A stretch of DNA of 64,000 nt from Clostridiales bacterium. Its GTDB lineage: Bacteria; Bacillota; Clostridia; Christensenellales; JAISNN01. The position numbers and the translations under genes are program-made. The notes under the pieces were generated by a model. That model made no database searches and was not told the origin of the DNA. It saw nothing but the letters and a program-made list of their open reading frames with translations. Position 1 is the first letter of the stretch; each line of letters opens with the position of its first letter. The DNA lies in NCBI GenBank assembly GCA_031276195.1, contig JAISNN010000014.1, positions 1-64,000 on the forward strand, in the 5' to 3' direction. Shown piece after piece: positions 11,535 to 64,000 of the stretch.

Positions 11535-13199
11535 CTATTTTACGATTATATTCATGCCCTCGAACATCTCCTTCAAGCGGTTTATTTCCTCGCCGGGGGT
11601 GTTGTCGTTTTGTTTTTTTAAGATAGGTTTGAATTTTAAATCCGTCGTTTCGTGCAGCAAAGCCTGCGCCGTTTTTAGGTTCGCGTCCAAGCAAAACGAA
11701 TTATAATCCGCCTCGTCCGTAAAATACACCGTCAAAAATCCGTCCTCCGCCGCTACGTCGTACACGCTCGAAAAGGAAGCGAAAAGTTGGAGATGACCGC
11801 GCTTTCTGAACGCCTTTACGACATTCCCGAGAACGGCGCGCGCTTCGGCTTCGGTATAAATTTTTTGCAATACTATGCCGCCGTTTTCTATGTTTGAATT
11901 GCCTAAATTTTGCGGTACTATACCGCCGCTTTCTATATTTGAGCCGCTTAAGTTTTGCGGTACTATGCCGCCGTTTTCCGTGTTTGAATTGCTTAAATTT
12001 TGCGGTATTATACCGCCGTTTTCTATGCCTTTTTCTATATTAAAGGAGTTTTTTTTTACCTCGTCCGCAAGTCTGTTTTCGAGATTCTTTAAGCGGATCA
12101 AAATCCCCGTTTCGTCAAGTTCCGAAAGGCTGTCCGCCGCCCTTATTACCGCGGATTCTAAAAAAATCGCGGGGTTCGACGAATATCTCATATCCGATTC
12201 CAGCCTGACGAAGATCTCCAAAGCGCGGTACAGCAGCCTCGCCTCATACTTATCCGCGACGGGTTTCATCGCCTCGTAGAGTTCTTTCGGCAGTCCGTCC
12301 GCGCCGCCGCGCCCCGCCGTCTTTATAAAAATCAAATTCTTAAAATAGTCGCAAAGTTCGCGCCGCAAAATATTGACGTTTGAATTGCTCTTTAAAAGCC
12401 TCTCCGTCTCCCTTACCGCCCCGCCGATTTCACCCGAAAGAATGTATTCGGAAAGGGGGATATACTCGTCGGGCGCGTTCACCATAAGCGCGTCCAAAAC
12501 GTCCTTGTACCTTATGAAACCGTCCGAATACGCAAGGACGATATCGGCGTATGAGAGCGCGTCGCGGACGCTCCCCTCGCCTAATTTTGCAAGCGCGTAG
12601 ACCGCTTGCTCCTCGTATTTTACCTTTAATTCATCGAAAATTTTGGCTATTCTCGCCGCTATAATATCCGCGGGGACAAGCCGGAAATCGAAACGCATAC
12701 ACCGCGACAAAACCGTCTGAGGAACCTTGTGAATCTCCGTCGTCGCAAGAATAAAAATCATATGCTTAGGTGGCTCTTCAAGGGTTTTTAGAAGGGCGTT
12801 AAACGCGTTTATGGTCAACATATGAACCTCGTCGATTATATAGACCTTGTAGCGCGAATTGACGGGGGGAAAACCGCTGTTGTCCCTGAGCGCGCGGATC
12901 TCGTCCACGCCGTTGTTGCTCGCTCCGTCTAATTCCAAAACGTCTATGCCCTCCGCGCCGCTCTTGCACGCCAAGCACTCTCCGCACGGCGAACCGTTCT
13001 CGGGAGAAAGACAATTGACCGCGCGCGCGAAAATTTTCGCCGTAGTAGTCTTGCCCGTTCCGCGCGTCCCCGTGAAAATGTAGGCGTGGCTGATACTGCC
13101 CGACTTGATCTGATTGACAAGCGTCCTGACAATATGCTCCTGCCCGACGACGTCGCCGAATTTTAAAGGACGGAAATTTCTGTATAAAGAAACGGACAT
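11535..13199 (-). CDS. dnaX: DNA polymerase III subunit gamma/tau
   Basis: Walker A GTRGTGKTTTAKIFARAVNC, CGEC..C zinc motif, DEVHML, LEEPPKH. Confidence 0.95.
   Translation of the reverse strand: MSVSLYRNFRPLKFGDVVGQEHIVRTLVNQIKSGSISHAYIFTGTRGTGKTTTAKIFARAVNCLSPENGSPCGECLACKSGAEGIDVLELDGASNNGVDEIRALRDNSGFPPVNSRYKVYIIDEVHMLTINAFNALLKTLEEPPKHMIFILATTEIHKVPQTVLSRCMRFDFRLVPADIIAARIAKIFDELKVKYEEQAVYALAKLGEGSVRDALSYADIVLAYSDGFIRYKDVLDALMVNAPDEYIPLSEYILSGEIGGAVRETERLLKSNSNVNILRRELCDYFKNLIFIKTAGRGGADGLPKELYEAMKPVADKYEARLLYRALEIFVRLESDMRYSSNPAIFLESAVIRAADSLSELDETGILIRLKNLENRLADEVKKNSFNIEKGIENGGIIPQNLSNSNTENGGIVPQNLSGSNIESGGIVPQNLGNSNIENGGIVLQKIYTEAEARAVLGNVVKAFRKRGHLQLFASFSSVYDVAAEDGFLTVYFTDEADYNSFCLDANLKTAQALLHETTDLKFKPILKKQNDNTPGEEINRLKEMFEGMNIIVK
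11867..12016 (-). repeat. 45-nt in-frame tandem repeat in dnaX, four copies, each containing a GCGGTA..TACCGC-type palindrome
   Basis: Palindromes at 11867, 11912, 11957 and 12002, period exactly 45; encodes GGIxPQNLxxSNxEx. Confidence 0.9.
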
Positions 13200-13261
13200 A
13201 TTTTTCTCCCGTGTGTGTTTTTAGGGACCTTTTTTGTGAATGAAAGGTAAAAAAGAATGCC

Positions 13262-13655: not shown

Positions 13656-14056
13656 CGGGGGGCGGTTCTCAAAATGCGTGATAAAAAGCGGTTTAAAATA
13701 TAATTCCAAATCGGTCGCCCCACCCCTTAATCCCCTCCCACGGAGGGGAATTTATCTTATCTTCGTTTTTAGAGTGAAACTCCGACCGCTAAGCACATTT
13801 GTTGATCACCGCCTCTGACCATTACTCACTAACTACCGACCGCTATTCTTGGTCGCCCCACCCCTTAATCCCCTCACACGGAGGGGAATTCGGACGACCG
13901 CTGACAATCGATCACCGGCCGCTAATGCTATATCCGCCGCCGATCACCGATCACTAATAACCAACCACTAACCGCCGATCACTAACCGCTAATAACCAAC
14001 CACTAACCGCTAATAACCGATCACTAACTACCTGCCGCCGGCCGCTAATATGCCGC

Positions 14057-15619
14057 TCAATAAATCTTTATCGTATGCCCGTCCTTGTCGATATCCACCC
14101 ACTTGCCGCCTTCCTTGACGCGCGCCGCGCCGTTCTCGAAAGACATCGCCGCCTCAAACCGAAAATCGACGACTACCTCGCCGTTATGCCCGATAAAGCC
14201 CGTTTTGTTGTTTTTTGTCACGCACGCCAGCCCCTCCTTGAAAGACATACCGAGATCGTATTCAAAGGGAATCACGACGTTGTTTTCCGCGTCGATATAG
14301 CCGAATTTTTCATTTTTTTCCGCGCACGCCAGCCCTTCCTTAAAGGCGAAAATCTCGTCGTATACGGGCTGAATCGTGATCCGGTTCGTCGCGGAATCTA
14401 TATAGCCGAAACGTCCGTTCCGCGTATATTTCGTCCAATCCTCCGCCGAAAGAGGCCCCGTTTTCTTGACCGCGGGGACGGGCTTTTCCGCCCCGTTCGC
14501 CGCGCTCCTCACCTCCGAATAGCCGAATCTCTCCGCGTCGTTCCTCGCGCCCTTGACGACGGAATTGCCGCCGCCCTTCGCGCTTTCGCCGCGCTTGTCA
14601 GGCGCGCCGTTCTTCTTGTCGTTTGCGAATTTGTCCTTTCCGTTTCCGGCGTTTCTATCGTTTCGCCCGTTGTTTGAAAATCTGCCGCTTTCGGATTTGT
14701 TTCCGTCGGCTTTACGGCCGCCCGCGAATCCGTTTTCGGGTTTTCCGTCGTTCCTTTTGTCGCTTGAAAATTTGTTTCCGTCCTGTCTTTTGCCGTCGGG
14801 TTTGGCGTTTCCGGCGTTTCGCCCGTTGTTTGAAAATCTATCGCCGCGTTCGTTTTCCGCGTCGTTTGAGAATTTATTTCCGCCGGCTTTTCCGTCGCTT
14901 AAAAATCTGCCGTTTTCGGATTTGGTTCCGCCGGCTTTTCCGTTGTTTGAAAATCTATCGCCGCGTTCGTTTCCCGCGTCGTTTGAGAATTTATTTCCGT
15001 CTTTTCCGTTTCGGTCGTTCCTCTCGTTCCGTCCGTTGTTGGAAAATCTGTTTTCGTTTCTCTTTTCACTTAAAAATCTGCCGCCGCGTTCGTTTCCCGC
15101 GCCGCCCGCGTTTCCGTTGTTTCCGTTAATCTTGCCGTCGTCCGCGGATTTGTTTCCGTCCGCGCCGCCGTCTTTTTCGATTGCGCCGCTCTTTCCTCCG
15201 TTTGAAATGCCGCCGCCCCTTCTCCCGTCGTCGGAAAATCTATTGCTTCCGCCGTCTTTTTCGCCGTCGGAAAATCCGCCGCCCTCTCTTCCGCCCGCGT
15301 ACGCGCTTTCTCCGCGTCTTTCAAAGGCTTCGCCGCGCCGCCGTTCGCTTTCCGGTTCGTCATGCCTAAAATCGATGTTCAAAGCGTCTACCGCGCTCTT
15401 TAATTCCAAAAAATATTCGGGTTTCAACGCCCTGATCGATCGGATGTCGCTCTCGCTCCTCTTGACGACGCCGTATAAATCCTTGATAAACGAATCGGTG
15501 AGGACTTTTTTTACGTCGCCGCCGATGGCAAGTTCCGAAACGGGCGTTCTCAAAAGTTCCTTGTCGTAAGGCGGTACATAACTCGGTCTGAATTTTTTGT
15601 GAGGCTTATAATATGACAT
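14057..15619 (-). CDS. WG-repeat protein with N-terminal RpoA-CTD-like helical domain and Gly/Asn/Arg/Lys-rich linker
   Basis: C-terminal repeats (GRFGYIDSATNRITIQPVYDEIFAFKEGLACAEKNEKFGYIDAENNVVIPFEYD); N-terminal TPVSELAIGGDVKKVLTDSFIKDLYGVVKRSESDIRSIRALKPEYFLELKSAVDAL. Confidence 0.75.
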   Translation of the reverse strand: MSYYKPHKKFRPSYVPPYDKELLRTPVSELAIGGDVKKVLTDSFIKDLYGVVKRSESDIRSIRALKPEYFLELKSAVDALNIDFRHDEPESERRRGEAFERRGESAYAGGREGGGFSDGEKDGGSNRFSDDGRRGGGISNGGKSGAIEKDGGADGNKSADDGKINGNNGNAGGAGNERGGRFLSEKRNENRFSNNGRNERNDRNGKDGNKFSNDAGNERGDRFSNNGKAGGTKSENGRFLSDGKAGGNKFSNDAENERGDRFSNNGRNAGNAKPDGKRQDGNKFSSDKRNDGKPENGFAGGRKADGNKSESGRFSNNGRNDRNAGNGKDKFANDKKNGAPDKRGESAKGGGNSVVKGARNDAERFGYSEVRSAANGAEKPVPAVKKTGPLSAEDWTKYTRNGRFGYIDSATNRITIQPVYDEIFAFKEGLACAEKNEKFGYIDAENNVVIPFEYDLGMSFKEGLACVTKNNKTGFIGHNGEVVVDFRFEAAMSFENGAARVKEGGKWVDIDKDGHTIKIY

Positions 15620-15903
15620 AAAATATTACTCCAAATTTGTATTAGCGGGTTTTTATTTAGCGGCCGGCGGTCGGTAAAGATGATTATTTATTTAGCGGCC
15701 GGCGCGCCGGCATTGCCGAAAGCGATAAGTTTTTTTTCCGCTTGCGCGTTATTGTGAATACGCTCTAATTATATTACCACAAAAAAAGAAAATATTCAAG
15801 TGTTTTTATTATATAGCGGTTGTTCTTTAAATACTTGCAAACAAGAAAATATCCAAACGCTTTTATTTATAGAGATCGTTCTTTAAATACTTGTGAAAAA
15901 ATA

Positions 15904-17201: not shown

Positions 17202-17328
17202 TTAAAAAATGCGGAGGAAAACTTTTTCGTAAAAAAGTTTTTCCTCCGCGCCTCCTTTCAAAAACTTTTAATAATAAAAATTATGCCTCCCCCGCTTTTT
17301 CACTTTTCTTTTTTTCTTTCTATTCGGC

Positions 17329-17423
17329 CGCCCCACCCCCTAACCCCCTCCCACGGAGGGGAATTAAAGGATAACAAAGCAAGTTTCGCCCCACCCCCTG
17401 ACCCCCTCCCACGGAGGGGAATT
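17329..17423. repeat. Two tandem copies of the GC-rich inverted repeat family A (CGCCCCACCCCCTaACCCCCTCCCACGGAGGGGAATT)
   Basis: Same element as at 6576, 8466, 10280, 13716, 13854, 30512, 30633, 30854, 34962, 37263 and 37474. Confidence 0.9.
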
Positions 17424-30382: not shown

Positions 30383-31144
30383 AAAATCCTCGTCTCCTTA
30401 AAAAAAGGTCTAATTTATTCTTTTAAGCCGCGCGTCCGCTCGGTGTGAAATCAATATCAGTCTTGTTTAAAACGCCCAAATCACCGCTTGCCTTTCAATT
30501 CCTTATCCGCTATTCCCCTCCGTGGGAGGGGGCAAGGGGGTGGGGCGAAGTTCTCTTGTTTTCCTTATTTTCCTTATTTTCCGCTTGTCTGCCGTTTTCT
30601 ATTCGGTCGTACCCGCTTTCTTTCTATTCGGTCGCCCCACCCCTTAATCCCCTCCCACGGAGGGGAATTTCCTATATACACGCTTTTTGAGTGAAACGCT
30701 TGATCTATTTTTGTTAGGTTGTGCTTGCTTTCTTATGTTGTCTAACTTTTTTCTGTTGTTGTCTAACTTTTTTCCGTTCTGTCGCTTGCCACGCTTTTTA
30801 TTTCTTTCCCACCGATAAGGGCGGGCGGGCGGGGGCTTTACTTATTTTCCGCTATTCCCCTCCGTGGGAGGGGATCAAAGGGGTGGGGCGAAACGTTCCG
30901 TTTGATACGGACTATTTACGTCAATACGATAGGAAACGAAAACGACGCATTTTATATACGTAAAATAAAGATCCCTATCTCCTTTTTATACGCCCAAATA
31001 CACGGCTCGCAAAAAAATGTGAACCGTTCCCATTCTTAGTTATGTATATTATATAACCGATATCCGCTCTTGTCAATACCCTTTTTAAAAAAAATTTAAT
31101 AAATTTTCAAAAAGTTTCGGTTTTTAAGATAAAATTTTAAAATT

Positions 31145-31565
31145 TTAAAAAAAATGCAGGGAAAAAACTTTTTAGAAAAAAGTTTTCTCCCATACCCTCT
31201 TTCAAAAACTTTTAGTAATAGTAATTCAAACTTTTTGTGATTTGTTCATTATTCGGGAAAAACTTTTTAGAAAAAAGTCTTTCCCGTACCCTTTTCAAAA
31301 ACTTTCGGTAATAGTAATTCAAACTTTTTGTGATTTGTTCATTATTCGGGAAAAAACTTTTTGAAAAAAGTTTTCTCCCGTACCCTCTTTCAAAAACTTT
31401 TAGTAATAGTAATTCAAACTTTTAGTAACCGTAGTACAAACTTTTAGTAACCGTAGTACAAACTTTTAGTAACCGTAGTACAAACTTTCAGTAATAGTCC
31501 AAACTTTCAGTAACCGTAGTACAAACTTTCAGTAATAGTCCAAACTTTTTACGCGCGTTCAAAAT
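31145..31565. repeat. Left flanking array of family B hairpin repeats and 22-bp 'ACTTTTAGTAACCGTAGTACAA' units beside hicAB
   Basis: Three AAACTTTTTnGAAAAAAGTTTT hairpin units followed by 22-bp repeats, ending CCAAACTTTTTACGCGCGTTCAAAA. Confidence 0.85.
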
Positions 31566-32335: not shown

Positions 32336-32454
32336 AGCCTCGCATCTTAATTTGTATATATAGTGATTTATCTAATTCATCTATATTATACGTATTCAAT
32401 ACGTATTTGTCAATACTTTTTCGTTATTTTTTTATTTTTTTGTTTTTTTCAGAA

Positions 32455-32785
32455 TTATTCGGGAAAAACTTTTTAGAAAAAAGTCTTTCCCATACCCTCT
32501 TTCAAAAACTTTCGGTAATAGTAATTCAAACTTTTTGTGATTTGTTCATTATTCGGGAAAGACTTTTTAGAAAAAAGTCTTTCCCATACCCTTTTCAAAA
32601 ACTTTTAGTAATAGTAATTCAAACTTTTTGTAACTTGTTCATTATTCGGGAAAAAACTTTTTGAAAAAAGTTTTCTCCCGTACCCTCTTTCAAAAACTTT
32701 CGGTAATCGTAATTCAAACTTTTAATAACCGTAGTACAAACTTTCAGTAATAGTCCAAACTTTTTACGCGCGTTCAAAAACTTCC
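32455..32785. repeat. Right flanking array, direct repeat of the 31145-31565 array
   Basis: Same TTCATTATTCGGGAAAAACTTTTTAGAAAAAAGTCTTTCCC units and same terminal CCAAACTTTTTACGCGCGTTCAAAA. Confidence 0.85.
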
Positions 32786-34877: not shown

Positions 34878-35064
34878 TACCGTTAATCGTTTTTGGGGGA
34901 AACTTTTAGTAATTGCAAAAGTGTATTTGTAAAGTGTATTTTTTACCCCGAAAAGATCGATCGCCCCACCCCCTTGCCCCCTCCCACGGAGGGGAATTAA
35001 GGATAATTAGTAAAATACCGTTAAGCGGATAAAAAGAAAAATACCGTTAAAATACGCCGCTCCT

Positions 35065-37116: not shown

Positions 37117-37508
37117 CTTTTAGTAATTTATTTTGTTTTTAAAATGCGGAGGAAAACTTTTTCGTAAAAAGTTTTCCTCCGCGCCTCCTTTCAAAAACTT
37201 TTAGTAATAACGAATATAGCAAAGAAGTGCTTGTAAAATGTATTTCTTGTTCCAAATAATGCCGCCCCACCCCTACCCCTCCCACGGAGGGGAATTTTTG
37301 ATGATTATTTATCGTTATTCGGGAAAAACTTTTAGTAATTTGTTTTGTTTTTAAAATGCGGAGGAAAACTTTTTCGTAAAAAGTTTTCCTCCGCGCCTCT
37401 TTTCAAAAACTTTTAGTAATAACGAATATAGCAAAGAAGTGCTTGTAAAATGTATTTCTTGTTCCAAATAATGCCGCCCCACCCCTACCCCTCCCACGGA
37501 GGGGAATT
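37117..37508. repeat. 212-bp tandem duplication containing a family B hairpin and a family A element
   Basis: CGAATATAGCAAAGAAGTGC at 37211 and 37423; near-identical units. Confidence 0.88.
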
Positions 37509-57417: not shown

Positions 57418-58944
57418 CTAATTCTCTATAAAAAACTTCAAGAGGCTTTCTCCGCTCTCGAAAAAACCGCCCTTTTTTACCGCCATTTCGTTATATTCGC
57501 TCACGCCGTTCGACAGGTTTTTTTGTCCGTCGAAAATCATAAACGGCACGGGATCTACGCTGTGCGTCATCGTCGAAAGCGGCGTGGGGTGGTCGGGCAG
57601 AATCATAAGCGAATATTCGAGATTTTTTTTGTCAAGCCCGTCCTTTATATATCCGATCACGCCGTCGATCTTTTCGATCGAACGAATCTTTCCCTCGCGG
57701 TCGCCGTGGTGTCCGCATTCGTCCGCCGCCTCGATATGGAGATATACAAAATCGCAGCCGTCCGAAACCGCCGAAAGCGCCGCTTCGGCTTTGCCTAAAA
57801 AGTTTGTCTCGACCGTTCCCGTCGCGCCCTCGACCTCATAGATTTTCATATTCGCCGCCATACCGATCCCTTTGATCAAATCCACGGCGGAGATAACCGC
57901 GCCCTTCTTTCCGTTTAACTTATAAAAATCGTCTATCATCGGCTTTTTTCCCTCGCCCCAAAGCCAAACGGCGTTGGCGGGATTTTGTCCGCGTTCGATC
58001 CGTTTTTTGTTGATCTCGTGCGCCGTCAAAAATTTATGCGACTCCTCGATGATCTCCCTAAAAGTTTCTCCGTATACGCCGCGCGGCAGATATCCGCCGA
58101 TTTTTTTGCCCGATATGTCGTGCGGCGGGGTGCAGACCGTCCCCGTCTTGCCGTTCTCTATGATCAGACAGTTTCTGTATGAAACGCCTCCGTAAAACGT
58201 GAAACATCCGACGGCTAAGGCGGGCTTTCCGGACGGATCTATACCGCCGCTTTCGTCGCTTTTTTCTATAATATCTGTTATGTTTTGAATCGTTTTCGGC
58301 GTTTCGGCGGTTTTTTGCGGTACTGTACCGCGTTTTTGGGAATCGCTTAACGCCTTTAAATGCTTTTCAAAATCGGCGATTAGTATATGCGCCTCCCCCG
58401 TGCCGATTTCGCCCGCGCTGTAATCGAGCATTATCTTTTCGCCGAAACAATCCGAGCCGGCTTGCGGATCTTGACTTTGAATCCGGCGGTTTTGGGCGTT
58501 TGCGTTTATGCCGCGTTGTAAAGTTGAATTTGCGTTTGCGTTTTTGTTCGCGCCGTTGCGGCGTTCGGCGTTTGCGTTTATGCCGCCGTTCTCTTGCGCG
58601 TCCGCGCTTTTCTTTTCCGCATTCCCCAAGGTTACAAGGTTGCATCTCAACGCCAAATCGTCGTCTTTCATCGCGATTCCGATACTGACGGCTTCGAGCG
58701 GCGAACGCCCCGTGTAATACCGCTTCGGATCGTAGCCCATAACGGAAAGATTCGCGACGTCGCTCCCGGGCTTCATTCCGTCGGGAACGGTCTTGACCAG
58801 CCCCGCGAAAGAACGCCCGATCAACGAATCTATGACGGGAGTTTTCGCCTCGCAAAGCGGCGTTTGAGGATCTGCCGCGCCGCCGCGCGGAATGTCCGCC
58901 ATACCGTCGCCGAGAATTATTATCTTTATCTTTGAATCGCTCAT
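57418..58944 (-). CDS. apgM: Cofactor-independent phosphoglycerate mutase, archaeal (ApgM) type, with two in-frame insertions
   Basis: IIILGDGMADIP, GSDVANLSVMGYDPKRYYTGRSPLEA, IMLDYSAGEI, HIEAADECGHHGD, ILPDHPTPLSTMTHSVDPVPFMI. Confidence 0.9.
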   Translation of the reverse strand: MSDSKIKIIILGDGMADIPRGGAADPQTPLCEAKTPVIDSLIGRSFAGLVKTVPDGMKPGSDVANLSVMGYDPKRYYTGRSPLEAVSIGIAMKDDDLALRCNLVTLGNAEKKSADAQENGGINANAERRNGANKNANANSTLQRGINANAQNRRIQSQDPQAGSDCFGEKIMLDYSAGEIGTGEAHILIADFEKHLKALSDSQKRGTVPQKTAETPKTIQNITDIIEKSDESGGIDPSGKPALAVGCFTFYGGVSYRNCLIIENGKTGTVCTPPHDISGKKIGGYLPRGVYGETFREIIEESHKFLTAHEINKKRIERGQNPANAVWLWGEGKKPMIDDFYKLNGKKGAVISAVDLIKGIGMAANMKIYEVEGATGTVETNFLGKAEAALSAVSDGCDFVYLHIEAADECGHHGDREGKIRSIEKIDGVIGYIKDGLDKKNLEYSLMILPDHPTPLSTMTHSVDPVPFMIFDGQKNLSNGVSEYNEMAVKKGGFFESGESLLKFFIEN

Positions 58945-59049
58945 AATACAAAATTTCCTTTTTGCTTTTTCTTAAAGACGCGCTCCGCTTTTTTTATGCG
59001 GAAACGTCCTTTATCCTTTCGACTTTTTTATTCTTAATGTGATTTATGG

Positions 59050-59826: not shown

Positions 59827-59929
59827 AACATACTCCGTTTTTTTAAGTAAGAAATTGCCGGGGAAACTTTTTGAAAAAAGTTTTGGTACGTTTGACGGCG
59901 TTTTATTTATTATCGTAAAATATATTCGC

Positions 59930-60155
59930 CGCGCGCTTTTCGCTATAATACGGTTTCGCGGCTCTGTACCGCGTTTTTTTGAGATTTTGCGGTTAGATAT
60001 ATTCGCGGCATTATCCCGCGCTTTTTACGGCATTTGGCGGTTAAATATTTTTTCCGTGTTTATCTTTTCGCCGCGCGCCGTTTCGCGGCTCTGTACCGCG
60101 TTTGTTTGAGATTTTGCGGTTAGATATATTCGCGGTTCTGTACCGCCGTTTTTTA
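59930..60155. repeat. Tandem array containing CGCGGCTCTGTACCGCG and related palindromes between rlmB and the sigma factor gene
   Basis: TTTCGCGGCTCTGTACCGCGTTTkTTTGAGATTTTGCGGTTAGATATATTCGCGG twice. Confidence 0.85.
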
Positions 60156-60174
60156 TCGCGTAACGCGGCATTCT

Positions 60175-60912
60175 TCAAACTTTTAAATCTCTCTGTCTTA
60201 TGATCTCATAGAGGGCGATTCCGCAGGCGACGGACGCGTTCAGCGAATTCACCTTTCCCAGCGTCGGCAGGCTCACAACCCTGTCGCAAAGTTTTTTTGT
60301 CAACGCGTGAACGCCCTCGCCCTCGCCGCCTATGACAAGCGCGATGTCGCCCCTCAGCGGTTTCGCCGAATAGATCGGTTCGCCGTCCATATCGGCGGCG
60401 ACGATATTTATAAATTCGTCCTTCAACGTCCTTATCGCGTCGTTTATATTAGTTACTCTCGCGATCTTGACGTGCGCCGACGCGCCCGCCGAAACTTTGA
60501 CGACCGCGTCCGTTACGCCCGCGGCTCTGTGCTTTCCGATTATGATTCCGTTCGCGCCCGCGCACTCGGCGACTCTGATTATCGCGCCTAAGTTGTGCGG
60601 ATCCTCTATACCGTCCAAAACCAATATCAAACGCGCGCCTTTCGCCTTGTCCGCCGCCAAAATGTCTTTTATATCGGCGTATTTAAAATCGGTCGTAACC
60701 GCCAGCGCGCCTTGATGCCGCCCCGAAACCGAAAGTTTGTCGAGCAGTTCCTTTTCGGCGTAGATGACCTTTATCTTTCGCTCTAACGCGCGCGCGACGA
60801 TATACGAAAGTTGGGGGTCGGGCTTCGCGGAGTTTTTTTGGACGTATAGTTTTTCTATCGTCGCAGAGCCTTTCAGTAATTCTTTTACGGGATTTTTTCC
60901 TTCCACTATCAT
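60175..60912 (-). CDS. rlmB: 23S rRNA 2'-O-methyltransferase RlmB/TrmH family
   Basis: VEGKNPVKELLKG, LDGIEDPHNLGAIIRVAECAGANGIII, VNSLNASVACGIALYEIIRQR. Confidence 0.92.
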   Translation of the reverse strand: MIVEGKNPVKELLKGSATIEKLYVQKNSAKPDPQLSYIVARALERKIKVIYAEKELLDKLSVSGRHQGALAVTTDFKYADIKDILAADKAKGARLILVLDGIEDPHNLGAIIRVAECAGANGIIIGKHRAAGVTDAVVKVSAGASAHVKIARVTNINDAIRTLKDEFINIVAADMDGEPIYSAKPLRGDIALVIGGEGEGVHALTKKLCDRVVSLPTLGKVNSLNASVACGIALYEIIRQRDLKV

Positions 60913-61079
60913 TTTTGTTTCCTTAATCCTTCTTTATTTTCCTATTGATTTTTTTTAGAATTTCTTCGTTTTTTTTTTAGAATTTCAATATGTAATTTTG
61001 CCGCTTATTATTGCCTTCTTTTTCGGCTTTCCGCGTCCGTTGCTTTTTAATTTTATTATACATTTGTTTTTATTTTTTC

Positions 61080-61275
61080 TATTCCGTTTGTTTTTCGCGG
61101 TTCTATACCGCCGTTTTAGGCTTGTTTTGCCGTTCCTTTGGTTTCTTTCCGTTCCGTTTGTTTTTCGCAATACTATACCGCACTATACCGCCGTTTTAGG
61201 GCTTGTTCTATCTTTCTTTGATTTCTTTCCGTTCCGTTTGACTTTTGCGGTTCTATACCGCCGTTTTGAGGCTTG
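61080..61275. repeat. About 80-bp tandem repeat (three copies) with GCGGTTCTATACCGCCGTTTTAGGCTTG
   Basis: Direct reading. Confidence 0.85.
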
Positions 61276-61392
61276 CTATTACATTTTTTATCGTTTGATT
61301 TTTACCCGCGTTTTTTATGTCGAATAATATGCGGTTTTAGATCAAACGCGCGTTTGATTTAAAAGTTTAGCCGCTATATACGCCGTATAAAT

Positions 61393-62322
61393 TTAACCGC
61401 CCTCGTTTCGGCTCGTCTTATGTCCGCTGTTCCAAATGTAAAACGCGTCGTTTAATTCCGATTTGTATTTATCGGACATACTGTTCCTAATCTTCAAAAA
61501 TTGTTCGTTCTCGCGGAAACTGTAATAGTCGTCGTTGTTCCCGACGATTATGTGGTCAAGCAGGTTGATCTCCAAAACGGGAAAAACCGAAAGCATCTCG
61601 ATCGACGCGTCTATGTCGTTCTTTGACGGACGGATATCGCCCGACGGGTGATTGTGGATTATGACGATATTCGTCGCGCCGCATTGCAAGGCGATCTCGG
61701 CGATTTGCCTAAGGTATATCGCGGTTTGGTTGACGATTCCTTTTTGCAAAAGTACGCGGCGAATGAGTTTGAACCCGCCGTTTAGACAGAGGAGATACGC
61801 TTGTTCGGTTTTTAGGTTGGTCATAAAACTCTTGACATACTGAAAAACCGCGTAGGACGTGTTTAGGCAGTCGTTCTTTTTCGCTTTGTCATAATTTATT
61901 CTCGACGCGATTTTGTGGTGCAGCGCGATATTCGCCGCCGCTATGTCCGTCATTCCCTTGACCGTCCGCAATTCCTCGAAATCCGCGTCGAAAACCGCCG
62001 ACAGCGAACCGAATTTGTTTATCAATTCGTGCGCTATGACGTTGGTATCTCTGCGCGGAATAAACGGAAACAAAAAATATTCCAAAACCTGATGATCGGG
62101 ACAGATGTCTATGCCGCCGTCCAAAAGTTGCCGCCTAAGACGGCTGCGGTGATCCTTGTGAACGCCCGCGGAACCGGAACTCCTTTGGACGGGCTTGCGC
62201 TTTGTCCTTTTGCGCGGGACTGCCGCGCCGGTTTCAAACGCGCCGACCGGAAGATTTTCAAATAATTTTTCCGATTCGTCCTCACCTTCTAAATTGTTTT
62301 TGAAATTATTTTTTTTATCCAT
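61393..62322 (-). CDS. radC: RadC family JAB/MPN-domain protein
   Basis: RRQLLDGGIDICPDHQVLEYFLF, TNIVIIHNHPSGDIRPSKNDIDAS, LLDHIIVGNNDDYYSFRE. Confidence 0.92.
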   Translation of the reverse strand: MDKKNNFKNNLEGEDESEKLFENLPVGAFETGAAVPRKRTKRKPVQRSSGSAGVHKDHRSRLRRQLLDGGIDICPDHQVLEYFLFPFIPRRDTNVIAHELINKFGSLSAVFDADFEELRTVKGMTDIAAANIALHHKIASRINYDKAKKNDCLNTSYAVFQYVKSFMTNLKTEQAYLLCLNGGFKLIRRVLLQKGIVNQTAIYLRQIAEIALQCGATNIVIIHNHPSGDIRPSKNDIDASIEMLSVFPVLEINLLDHIIVGNNDDYYSFRENEQFLKIRNSMSDKYKSELNDAFYIWNSGHKTSRNEGG

Positions 62323-62439
62323 GCAAATATTTTAACATAAAACGGGAAAATAGTGTATAATAAAAACGCAGAAATATATTTTTTTATACTAAAAAAACGG
62401 TAAATAGGTAAAAAAATTGAAAATTCGGCGTATCGGGGC

Positions 62440-62630
62440 TTCGGGAACGGTCTAAAATTTTAAATGTTTTGAGATTTTAAATTCTGCAAAGCGGTTTGAT
62501 ATTTTAAAATATTCAATATTCGGGTTATCGCGGAACGGTCTAAAATTTTAAATATTTTGAGATTTTAAATTCCGCAAAGCGGTTTGATGTTTTAAAATAT
62601 TCAATATTCGGGTTATCGCGGAACGGCTTG
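62440..62630. repeat. 88-bp tandem repeat, about 2.3 copies, upstream of the M20 peptidase
   Basis: GGTCTAAAATTTTAAATATTTTGAGATTTTAAATTCCGCAAAGCGG at 62449 and 62537; a third GCGGAACGG at 62625. Confidence 0.85.
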
Positions 62631-62758
62631 TTATGTTTAATATTAAAAGTTTTCAGCCGCCGCAAAAAATGTCCGCCGCTTTAAATATCCGCCGCCTGCA
62701 ACGGCTTTAAACGGCGTAAAATGTTCCATACTAAATTCGCGTAATAAAAGGAGATTCT

Positions 62759-64000
62759 ATGAAAAAATATCTCGGCGAAATGATCTCGTCCTTGCAAAAA
62801 CTAATCTCGTTCAACAGCGTAGCGGGCAAAAAAACCGCGGGCGCGCCCTTCGGAAAAGCCGTCGGACAAGCGCTCGGCTTTACCCTCGCGCTCTCAAAAA
62901 GTCTGGGCTTCTCCGTCAAAAATCTCGACGGGTTTTCGGGATACGCCGAAACGGGGCTAAAAGACGGGAAAGTCTTCGCCGTTTTGTGCCATCTCGACGT
63001 CGTGCCGTTCAACCGCGCCGATTGGAAACACGATCCGCTCGGCGGCGAAATCGACGGCGGAAAACTCTATGGACGCGGAGCGTTGGACGACAAAGGCCCC
63101 ACGGTCGCCGCCCTCTACGCCGTCAAAAAACTTCTCGACGAAGGCTTTGAATTTCATAAAAAAGTGCGCTTTATTTTCGGGCTGGACGAAGAAGGCGGCA
63201 AGTGGAAAAGTATGGACTACTATCTCGAAAAAGAGGGTATGCCCGAAATCGGAATCGCGCCCGACGCGGATTTTCCCGTCATCAACTCCGAGATGGGAAA
63301 GGTGAACTTTGTCCTGAAAATGAAAATTCCTAAGGATTGCAAAGTCGTCGAATTCGGCGCGGGAACGCGCCCGAATATCGTCCCCGACTCCGCTTACTTT
63401 ATCGCAAGAAACGAAAATGGATTGGAAGATGCGGCAAAAAAATGCGGGCTGACCGTCGAAAAAATTTATAAGGCTGATAAAGACGCGGGGAGAAACTTTT
63501 TAACAAAAAGTTTTCTCCACGCCCCCTCTTCAAAAACTTTTAACGAAAATCCGCGGATCTATACCGCGGATTCAAGTCAAAATATTAACGCCGAATCTTG
63601 CGGAAATACACAAGTTGAAAATGCAGAAAACGGCGAAAAAACGCAGGTCTATACCGCGAATTTATGCGAAAAGACTAATATTGAATATTGCAAAAACGCG
63701 CAAGGCGAAACCGTCGGAAATATCGAAAAAACGCAGGTCTATACCGCGAATTTAGGCGAAAAGACTAATATTGAATATTGCGGAAATACACAAGGTAAAA
63801 ATGCAAAAAACGGCGAGAAAACGCAGTACTATACCGCGGAAAATATAGAGTTTTTAAAGATTTCCGCAGTCGGAAAGGCGGCTCACGGAGCGCACCCCGA
63901 ACAAGGCGAAAACGCCGCGGTAACCCTTTTGAAATTCTTAAATTCACGCGGTATAGAACCGTTTTTTTCTCTCTATACTCTCCTTTCCGACTATAACGGA
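62759..64000 (+). CDS. M20-family (PepV-like) dipeptidase, 3' end outside window, with long in-frame repeat-derived insertion
   Basis: Manual translation, 414 codons open to the window end: MKKYLGEMISSLQKLISFNSV...CHLDVVPFNRADWKHDPLGGEIDGGKLYGRGALDDKGPTVAALYAVK...FIFGLDEEGGKWKSMDYY...ISAVGKAAHGAHPEQGENA. Confidence 0.9.
   Translation, partial: MKKYLGEMISSLQKLISFNSVAGKKTAGAPFGKAVGQALGFTLALSKSLGFSVKNLDGFSGYAETGLKDGKVFAVLCHLDVVPFNRADWKHDPLGGEIDGGKLYGRGALDDKGPTVAALYAVKKLLDEGFEFHKKVRFIFGLDEEGGKWKSMDYYLEKEGMPEIGIAPDADFPVINSEMGKVNFVLKMKIPKDCKVVEFGAGTRPNIVPDSAYFIARNENGLEDAAKKCGLTVEKIYKADKDAGRNFLTKSFLHAPSSKTFNENPRIYTADSSQNINAESCGNTQVENAENGEKTQVYTANLCEKTNIEYCKNAQGETVGNIEKTQVYTANLGEKTNIEYCGNTQGKNAKNGEKTQYYTAENIEFLKISAVGKAAHGAHPEQGENAAVTLLKFLNSRGIEPFFSLYTLLSDYNG

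Follow-up and report, generated by a model that had tools for sequence, protein, structure and literature searches.

Most known cases of non-coding repeats inserted into enzymes come from the Rickettsiales. Proteins of the eukaryote Plasmodium falciparum carry asparagine-rich, disordered low-complexity loop inserts in many housekeeping proteins, which are absent from relatives. In bacteria, REPs are mainly extragenic and depend on RAYT, a Y1 transposase. Rickettsia palindromic elements (RPEs) measure about 100–150 bp, carry long terminal inverted repeats and encode a conserved peptide (PMC2229807, PMC10969869), while ERIC/RU-1, YPAL and the 107-bp Correia elements of Neisseria have been found fused in frame to ORFs (PMC2229807). 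The byp elements in the mitochondria of Magnusiomyces capitatus are hairpins occurring in many genes of one genome that are skipped by the ribosome (PMC6649704). Broad literature searches for the case described below returned nothing closer than the RPEs.

Here we analyze a peptidase gene of a Clostridiales bacterium, located at the end of the window, i.e., the whole stretch of 64,000 nucleotides that was analyzed. We consider it probable that composite repeats were inserted in frame into a loop of this PepV-type enzyme as part of a species-specific, genome-wide repeat proliferation, and that they are translated as neutral filler. The ORF encodes a Sapep/PepV-type M20 dipeptidase. Despite being truncated by the window, it matches TIGR01887 (E 1.8e-75; 254.9 bits, cut-off 207.95), PRK07318 (E 1.2e-75) and Peptidase_M20 (E 2.3e-18), and, at the sequence level, 3khz and 1lfw. 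On the 89-kb parent contig, the frame starting at ATG 62759 is open past the window end and comprises 573 codons up to the stop. An apgM-like gene lies close to pepV, as it does in four congeners. Residues H78, D80, D110, D111, E144, E145, D169 and H376 are invariant across 37 aligned homologues, and the metal-site and lid motifs are kept. With both anchors and the conserved metal-site motifs intact, the enzyme appears to be enlarged rather than broken, and its activity has presumably been retained.

The insertion sits between GLTVEKIY and FLKISAVGKAAHG. A search of 61 genomes yielded PepV orthologues in five congeners. None of the five carries the insertion, and the flanking conserved blocks adjoin or lie a few codons apart in all except G003. 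Compared with these orthologues, the gene has about 117 extra codons, in agreement with the preliminary description, which had reported a peptidase interrupted by about 120 codons of repeats and a frame that stays open throughout. It had also named the same insertion in unrelated taxa as evidence that would speak against a capture of repeats, and the compared homologues of other taxa are without it. Among 76 homologues, the loop between the NIVP and GKAAHG motifs has a median length of 43 aa, with 15–47 aa in 74 of them, 90 in G003 and 162 here. The pepV gene of G003 (L025) contains its own, unrelated insert of about 45 aa, shorter and located in the same loop. Within the insertion, the other five frames hold 3, 8, 4, 5 and 5 stops and the frame of the gene none; only 0.085% (0.00085) of Markov shuffles of the same length and composition gave an open frame.

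The features of the insert are listed in Table 1, together with other genes of the window. As DNA, the copy of hairpin B in pepV folds with a predicted energy of −13.5 kcal/mol (z = −3.9). It is accompanied by four CGCGGTnnTATACCGCG palindromes (palindrome A) that are spaced exactly 90 nt apart, each with one or two mismatches to the consensus. Both had been described as read through by the ORF, together with two 90-nt repeats. Hairpin and palindromes were recovered, in frame, so that two dispersed repeat types are indeed captured in one enzyme gene; the number of repeats had to be revised, as the 2.7 copies given by Tandem Repeats Finder bring the array, with its four palindromes, nearer to three units than to two. 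The 90-nt unit was not found elsewhere as a dispersed family; it is a tandem unit of local extent, formed around the dispersed palindrome A.

Table 1. Positions of the pepV insertion, its component repeats and further genes with insertions in the window
Feature	Position	Strand	Remarks
Sapep/PepV-type M20 dipeptidase gene	62759..64000	+	TIGR01887, PRK07318, Peptidase_M20, 3khz/1lfw; 3' part beyond window
Species-specific in-frame insertion, ~117 codons net	63477..63851	+	Missing from five congeners and other compared homologues
Family B hairpin (GCGGGGAGAAACTTTTT..AAAAAGTTTTCTCC) with CAAAAACTTTT tail	~63485..63545	+	~60 nt; read as AGRNFLTKSFLHAPSSKTF
Palindrome A, copy 1 (CGCGGATCTATACCGCG)	63552..63568	+	Read as PRIYTA
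Palindrome A, copy 2	63642..63658	+	Two mismatches; read as TQVYTA
Palindrome A, copy 3	63732..63748	+	Two mismatches; read as TQVYTA
Palindrome A, copy 4	63822..63838	+	One mismatch; read as TQYYTA
Tandem array with a 30-codon (90-nt) period, 2.7 copies	63593..63838	+	Tandem Repeats Finder, 76% matches
apgM-type phosphoglycerate mutase	57421..58971	-	Own-only insertions of 50 and 18 aa; palindrome A at 58316-58332 in one
dnaX (DNA polymerase III gamma/tau)	11538..13220	-	45-nt tandem array of palindrome A (ENGGIVPQNLxxSN) in linker
ORF with four own-only insertions	14060..15625	-	68, 36, 27 and 34 aa

PepV is not an isolated case in this genome: 32 of 124 comparable genes are affected. This number was obtained by comparing the ORFs of 755 kb of this genome with those of 741 kb of two congeners (G003 and G005), retaining reciprocal best pairs with at least 45% identity and scoring internal segments of at least 15 aa present on one side only. 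The sample covers about one third of the genome, ORFs were called by length only and each species is represented by one genome. The 32 genes carry 51 species-specific internal insertions, amounting to 2,852 codons. In the reverse direction, no congener-only segment was detected in the same 124 pairs, and a second script agreed. With a looser filter on a smaller sample (54 pairs), 15 genes were affected here versus 2 in the congeners, and the window and the unselected stretches alone gave insertions in 19 of 79 pairs. Affected genes include metG, pheT, ispG, mnmG, rlmD, whiA, apgM and those for cysteine desulfurase and an aconitase-type hydratase; the insertion sites in the cysteine desulfurase gene and in apgM were each compared with five congeners. 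The dnaX case is weaker because its linker varies in the congeners too. Insert composition is enriched in N, G, E and Q and depleted in hydrophobic residues.

The 51 segments were derived from orthologue gaps and not from palindrome matches. Seventeen of them contain palindrome A (≤3 mismatches), against 0.05 in shuffles, making it a frequent but not universal partner of the insertions. Several two-mismatch matches, for example in amidase-like and ABC transporter ORFs, look like ordinary conserved coding sequence and were not counted. Two further ORFs were noted. A GH2 beta-galactosidase of 1,512 codons (L093, 8637-13172, minus strand) has several repeat insertions between and within domains, and a GcvT-like ORF (L094, 1432-3321, plus strand) with TRYRSA (palindrome A) and LPFPEKKNIKIDLPFPKK repeats looks like a further insertion.

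Across the genome, palindrome A has 343 copies with at most one mismatch, compared with 4–22 in congeners, while a reversed control pattern gave no match in this genome at the same threshold. Hairpin B occurs 70 times in the 755-kb sample, with a conserved CAAAAACTTTT tail and variable stems. The copy in pepV is the only one of the 70 that lies in a recognizable gene, which makes the PepV insert unusual in holding both repeats. Three other candidates (L094, L106 and window position 59863) were rejected on account of their position close to the upstream end of an open frame, and a fourth (L247) because its low-complexity frame is no recognizable gene. The stem halves of hairpin B co-vary in the sample (CGGAGG/CCTCCG, CGGGAG/CTCCCG and CGGGGA/TCCCCG), and such paired changes suggest maintenance of the hairpin as such. 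The tail of hairpin B is similar to the complement of its stem. Family B hairpins are also found in period-93 tandem arrays at window positions 31159-31423 and 32454-32723, which are 92% alike over 287 nt. The window also contains eight copies of a third dispersed family (CGCCCCACCCC...CCCTCCCACGGAGGGGAATT), including 13700-13752, 13838-13890, 17313-17365, 30617-30669, 34946-34998 and 37244-37296.

Tandem repeats account for 8.9% of the window, 11.5% of a sample chosen by palindromes and 13.7% of an unselected sample, versus 1.3–1.4% in two congeners; the palindrome-chosen sample is biased as a measure of repeat density, and the unselected one gave the higher value. Intergenic DNA takes a larger share here (156 of 755 kb) than in the congeners (89 of 741 kb). 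Its A/T content shows an 11-nt periodicity that extends to 56 nt or more and exceeds that of the congeners in both strength and range (window, L092-L111, L231-L250). Outside genes, tandem periods peak near 11, 14, 22, 35, 44 and 87 nt, and inside genes at values divisible by three that lie close to multiples of 11 (21, 33, 45, 66 and 90). The simplest reading of these peaks would be one local amplification process operating everywhere and filtered in genes. As for its nature, we tentatively favor hairpin-promoted slippage or template switching, acting on units whose lengths lie close to multiples of 11 nt, over a RAYT/IS200-type transposase, a preference that falls somewhat short of an even chance of being right. 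Seeding by palindromes does not suffice as an explanation, since two thirds of the inserts have no recognizable one. The idea that a loss of mismatch repair or a missing hairpin nuclease was the cause was rejected, MutS and SbcD being present as in the congeners.

Alternatively, a MITE-like element could have been transposed by a transposase acting in trans, as is assumed for RPEs. Palindrome A and hairpin B are both dispersed in both orientations and copy number has risen sharply in one lineage, as expected of such an element; we nevertheless regard it as unlikely, since conservation of palindrome A stops at a 17-bp core beyond which only A/T flanks are found, and the local tandem units of which many segments consist are not the same in different genes. 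Moreover, a transposase search, which covered the Y1/RAYT type, gave no match to PF01797 in this 93-contig draft, whereas controls were positive. An origin by RAYT was rejected on these grounds, with the reservation that in a draft of 94% completeness a missing transposase is not proof of absence. Exact empty sites, at which a target-site duplication would show, are not preserved in the congeners owing to the divergence of their DNA. The genome resembles REP/REPIN-RAYT systems in its very short dispersed palindromes present in large numbers, but not in the possession of a detectable RAYT.

The insert could also be a functional module, an adaptive loop selected for its peptide. It adjoins the lid-domain segment with the conserved GKAAHG histidine, and the congener G003 independently acquired an insert in the same loop, which for its part indicates that the loop is insertion-tolerant. 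Selection for the peptide is improbable, however. Mismatches among the 90-nt copies are distributed over the three codon positions as 23/23/22, so no amino-acid constraint is visible in these units. Five of the six frames of palindrome A are stop-free; depending on the gene, it reads RGxxPR, SRYxTA or AVLYR, with all three frames in use, and the composition of the insert is that of filler common to unrelated enzymes. Even mismatches and N/G/E/Q-rich composition together suggest a peptide that is tolerated rather than selected. As the preliminary description had proposed, the location was checked by homologue alignment and structure prediction, and both place the insertion in a loop of the lid region. 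In an AlphaFold2 model of the part encoded in the window (414 of ~563 residues), pLDDT exceeds 80 for most of the body and drops to 27–56 at residues ~243–360, the insert falling between two strands; it is accordingly predicted to form a disordered surface loop. Sapep and PepV structures rank best in a fold search with this model, with overall TM-scores that are modest, as truncation and a disordered loop would lead one to expect.

A still less probable explanation is that the segment is never translated, either because ribosomes bypass its hairpins or because it is removed from the RNA. The byp elements offer a precedent for hairpin-forming palindromes spread over many coding genes of one genome (PMC6649704), and hairpin B is stable. 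Bypass, however, requires neither an open frame nor a length divisible by three, frame and stops being irrelevant in a skipped segment. Here, the 2,852 inserted codons of the 51 segments contain no in-frame stop, compared with 123 and 162 in the other two forward frames, and 115 of the 124 tandem arrays inside ORFs have a period divisible by three, versus 132 of 353 outside. Such a pattern is what selection for translation leaves and would be unexpected if segments were skipped or removed, providing an indirect test against a byp-like mode. Additionally, positions 60000-64000 have no match to an Rfam family at the gathering threshold. An assembly or binning artefact is hardly credible, for although this is a draft metagenome-style assembly and repeats in tandem pose difficulties for assemblers, an artefact would not preserve the frame in 51 segments or produce multiples of three only inside ORFs, and the PepV gene is internal to its contig next to the same neighbour as in congeners.

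We therefore return to insertion of translated filler, which could have proceeded as follows. A lineage-specific burst of short palindromic and tandem repeats would have filled intergenic DNA and also entered coding genes. In pepV, one family B hairpin and a locally amplified 90-nt unit carrying palindrome A would have come to lie in a surface loop. Selection would remove insertions that break the frame or the fold, while stop-free insertions of a multiple of three nucleotides sited in loops would persist, and translation of the PepV segment would add about 117 residues of filler that is disordered and free of constraint.

In-frame enlargement of this kind is unusual for a bacterium and shows how selfish or slippery DNA may enlarge proteins. 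One bacterial species here holds dozens of in-frame captures, with five congeners free of the PepV case and two serving for the broad comparison. It offers a natural experiment on the tolerance of housekeeping enzymes to loop insertions, on the passage of neutral DNA into protein and on a process that amplifies repeats in steps of about 11 nt. It also carries a warning for annotation, as gene length and domain gaps in such genomes may reflect repeats and not new domains.

Compared with known systems, the insertions resemble ERIC/RU-1, YPAL and Correia elements in being short repeats with open frames fused to coding genes. Those, however, are defined MITEs of 100–170 bp, mostly with target-site duplications, that hit few conserved genes, and in-gene tandem amplification such as seen here is not reported for them in PMC2229807. 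The resemblance to RPEs and to the protein-coding palindromic repeats of Wolbachia is closer: palindromes are dispersed between genes and also lie in frame inside conserved protein genes, where they add a segment that is translated (here presumably so) and viewed as selfish or neutral. Unlike RPEs, the insertions described here occur in a lineage of Clostridia, are often locally amplified tandem units and affect about a quarter of the compared genes. Palindrome A measures 17 bp and hairpin B about 60 nt, in contrast to a unit of about 100–150 bp forming one long stem-loop, and no conserved element-encoded peptide results, since the frame of palindrome A varies by gene. For these reasons we do not file them as RPEs. 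N-rich loop filler, predicted to be disordered, likens them to the low-complexity inserts of Plasmodium falciparum, which differ in consisting of simple-sequence repeats in a eukaryote, as opposed to palindrome-bearing units in a bacterium. With the balance standing about even, we propose that roughly one gene in four, housekeeping genes such as metG, pheT, ispG, mnmG and cysteine desulfurase included, has grown within one species by the insertion of translated palindrome-bearing and tandem repeats, arising through hairpin-promoted local amplification and not transposition. This would be the equivalent in bacteria of low-complexity expansion as in Plasmodium, and different in kind from RPEs.
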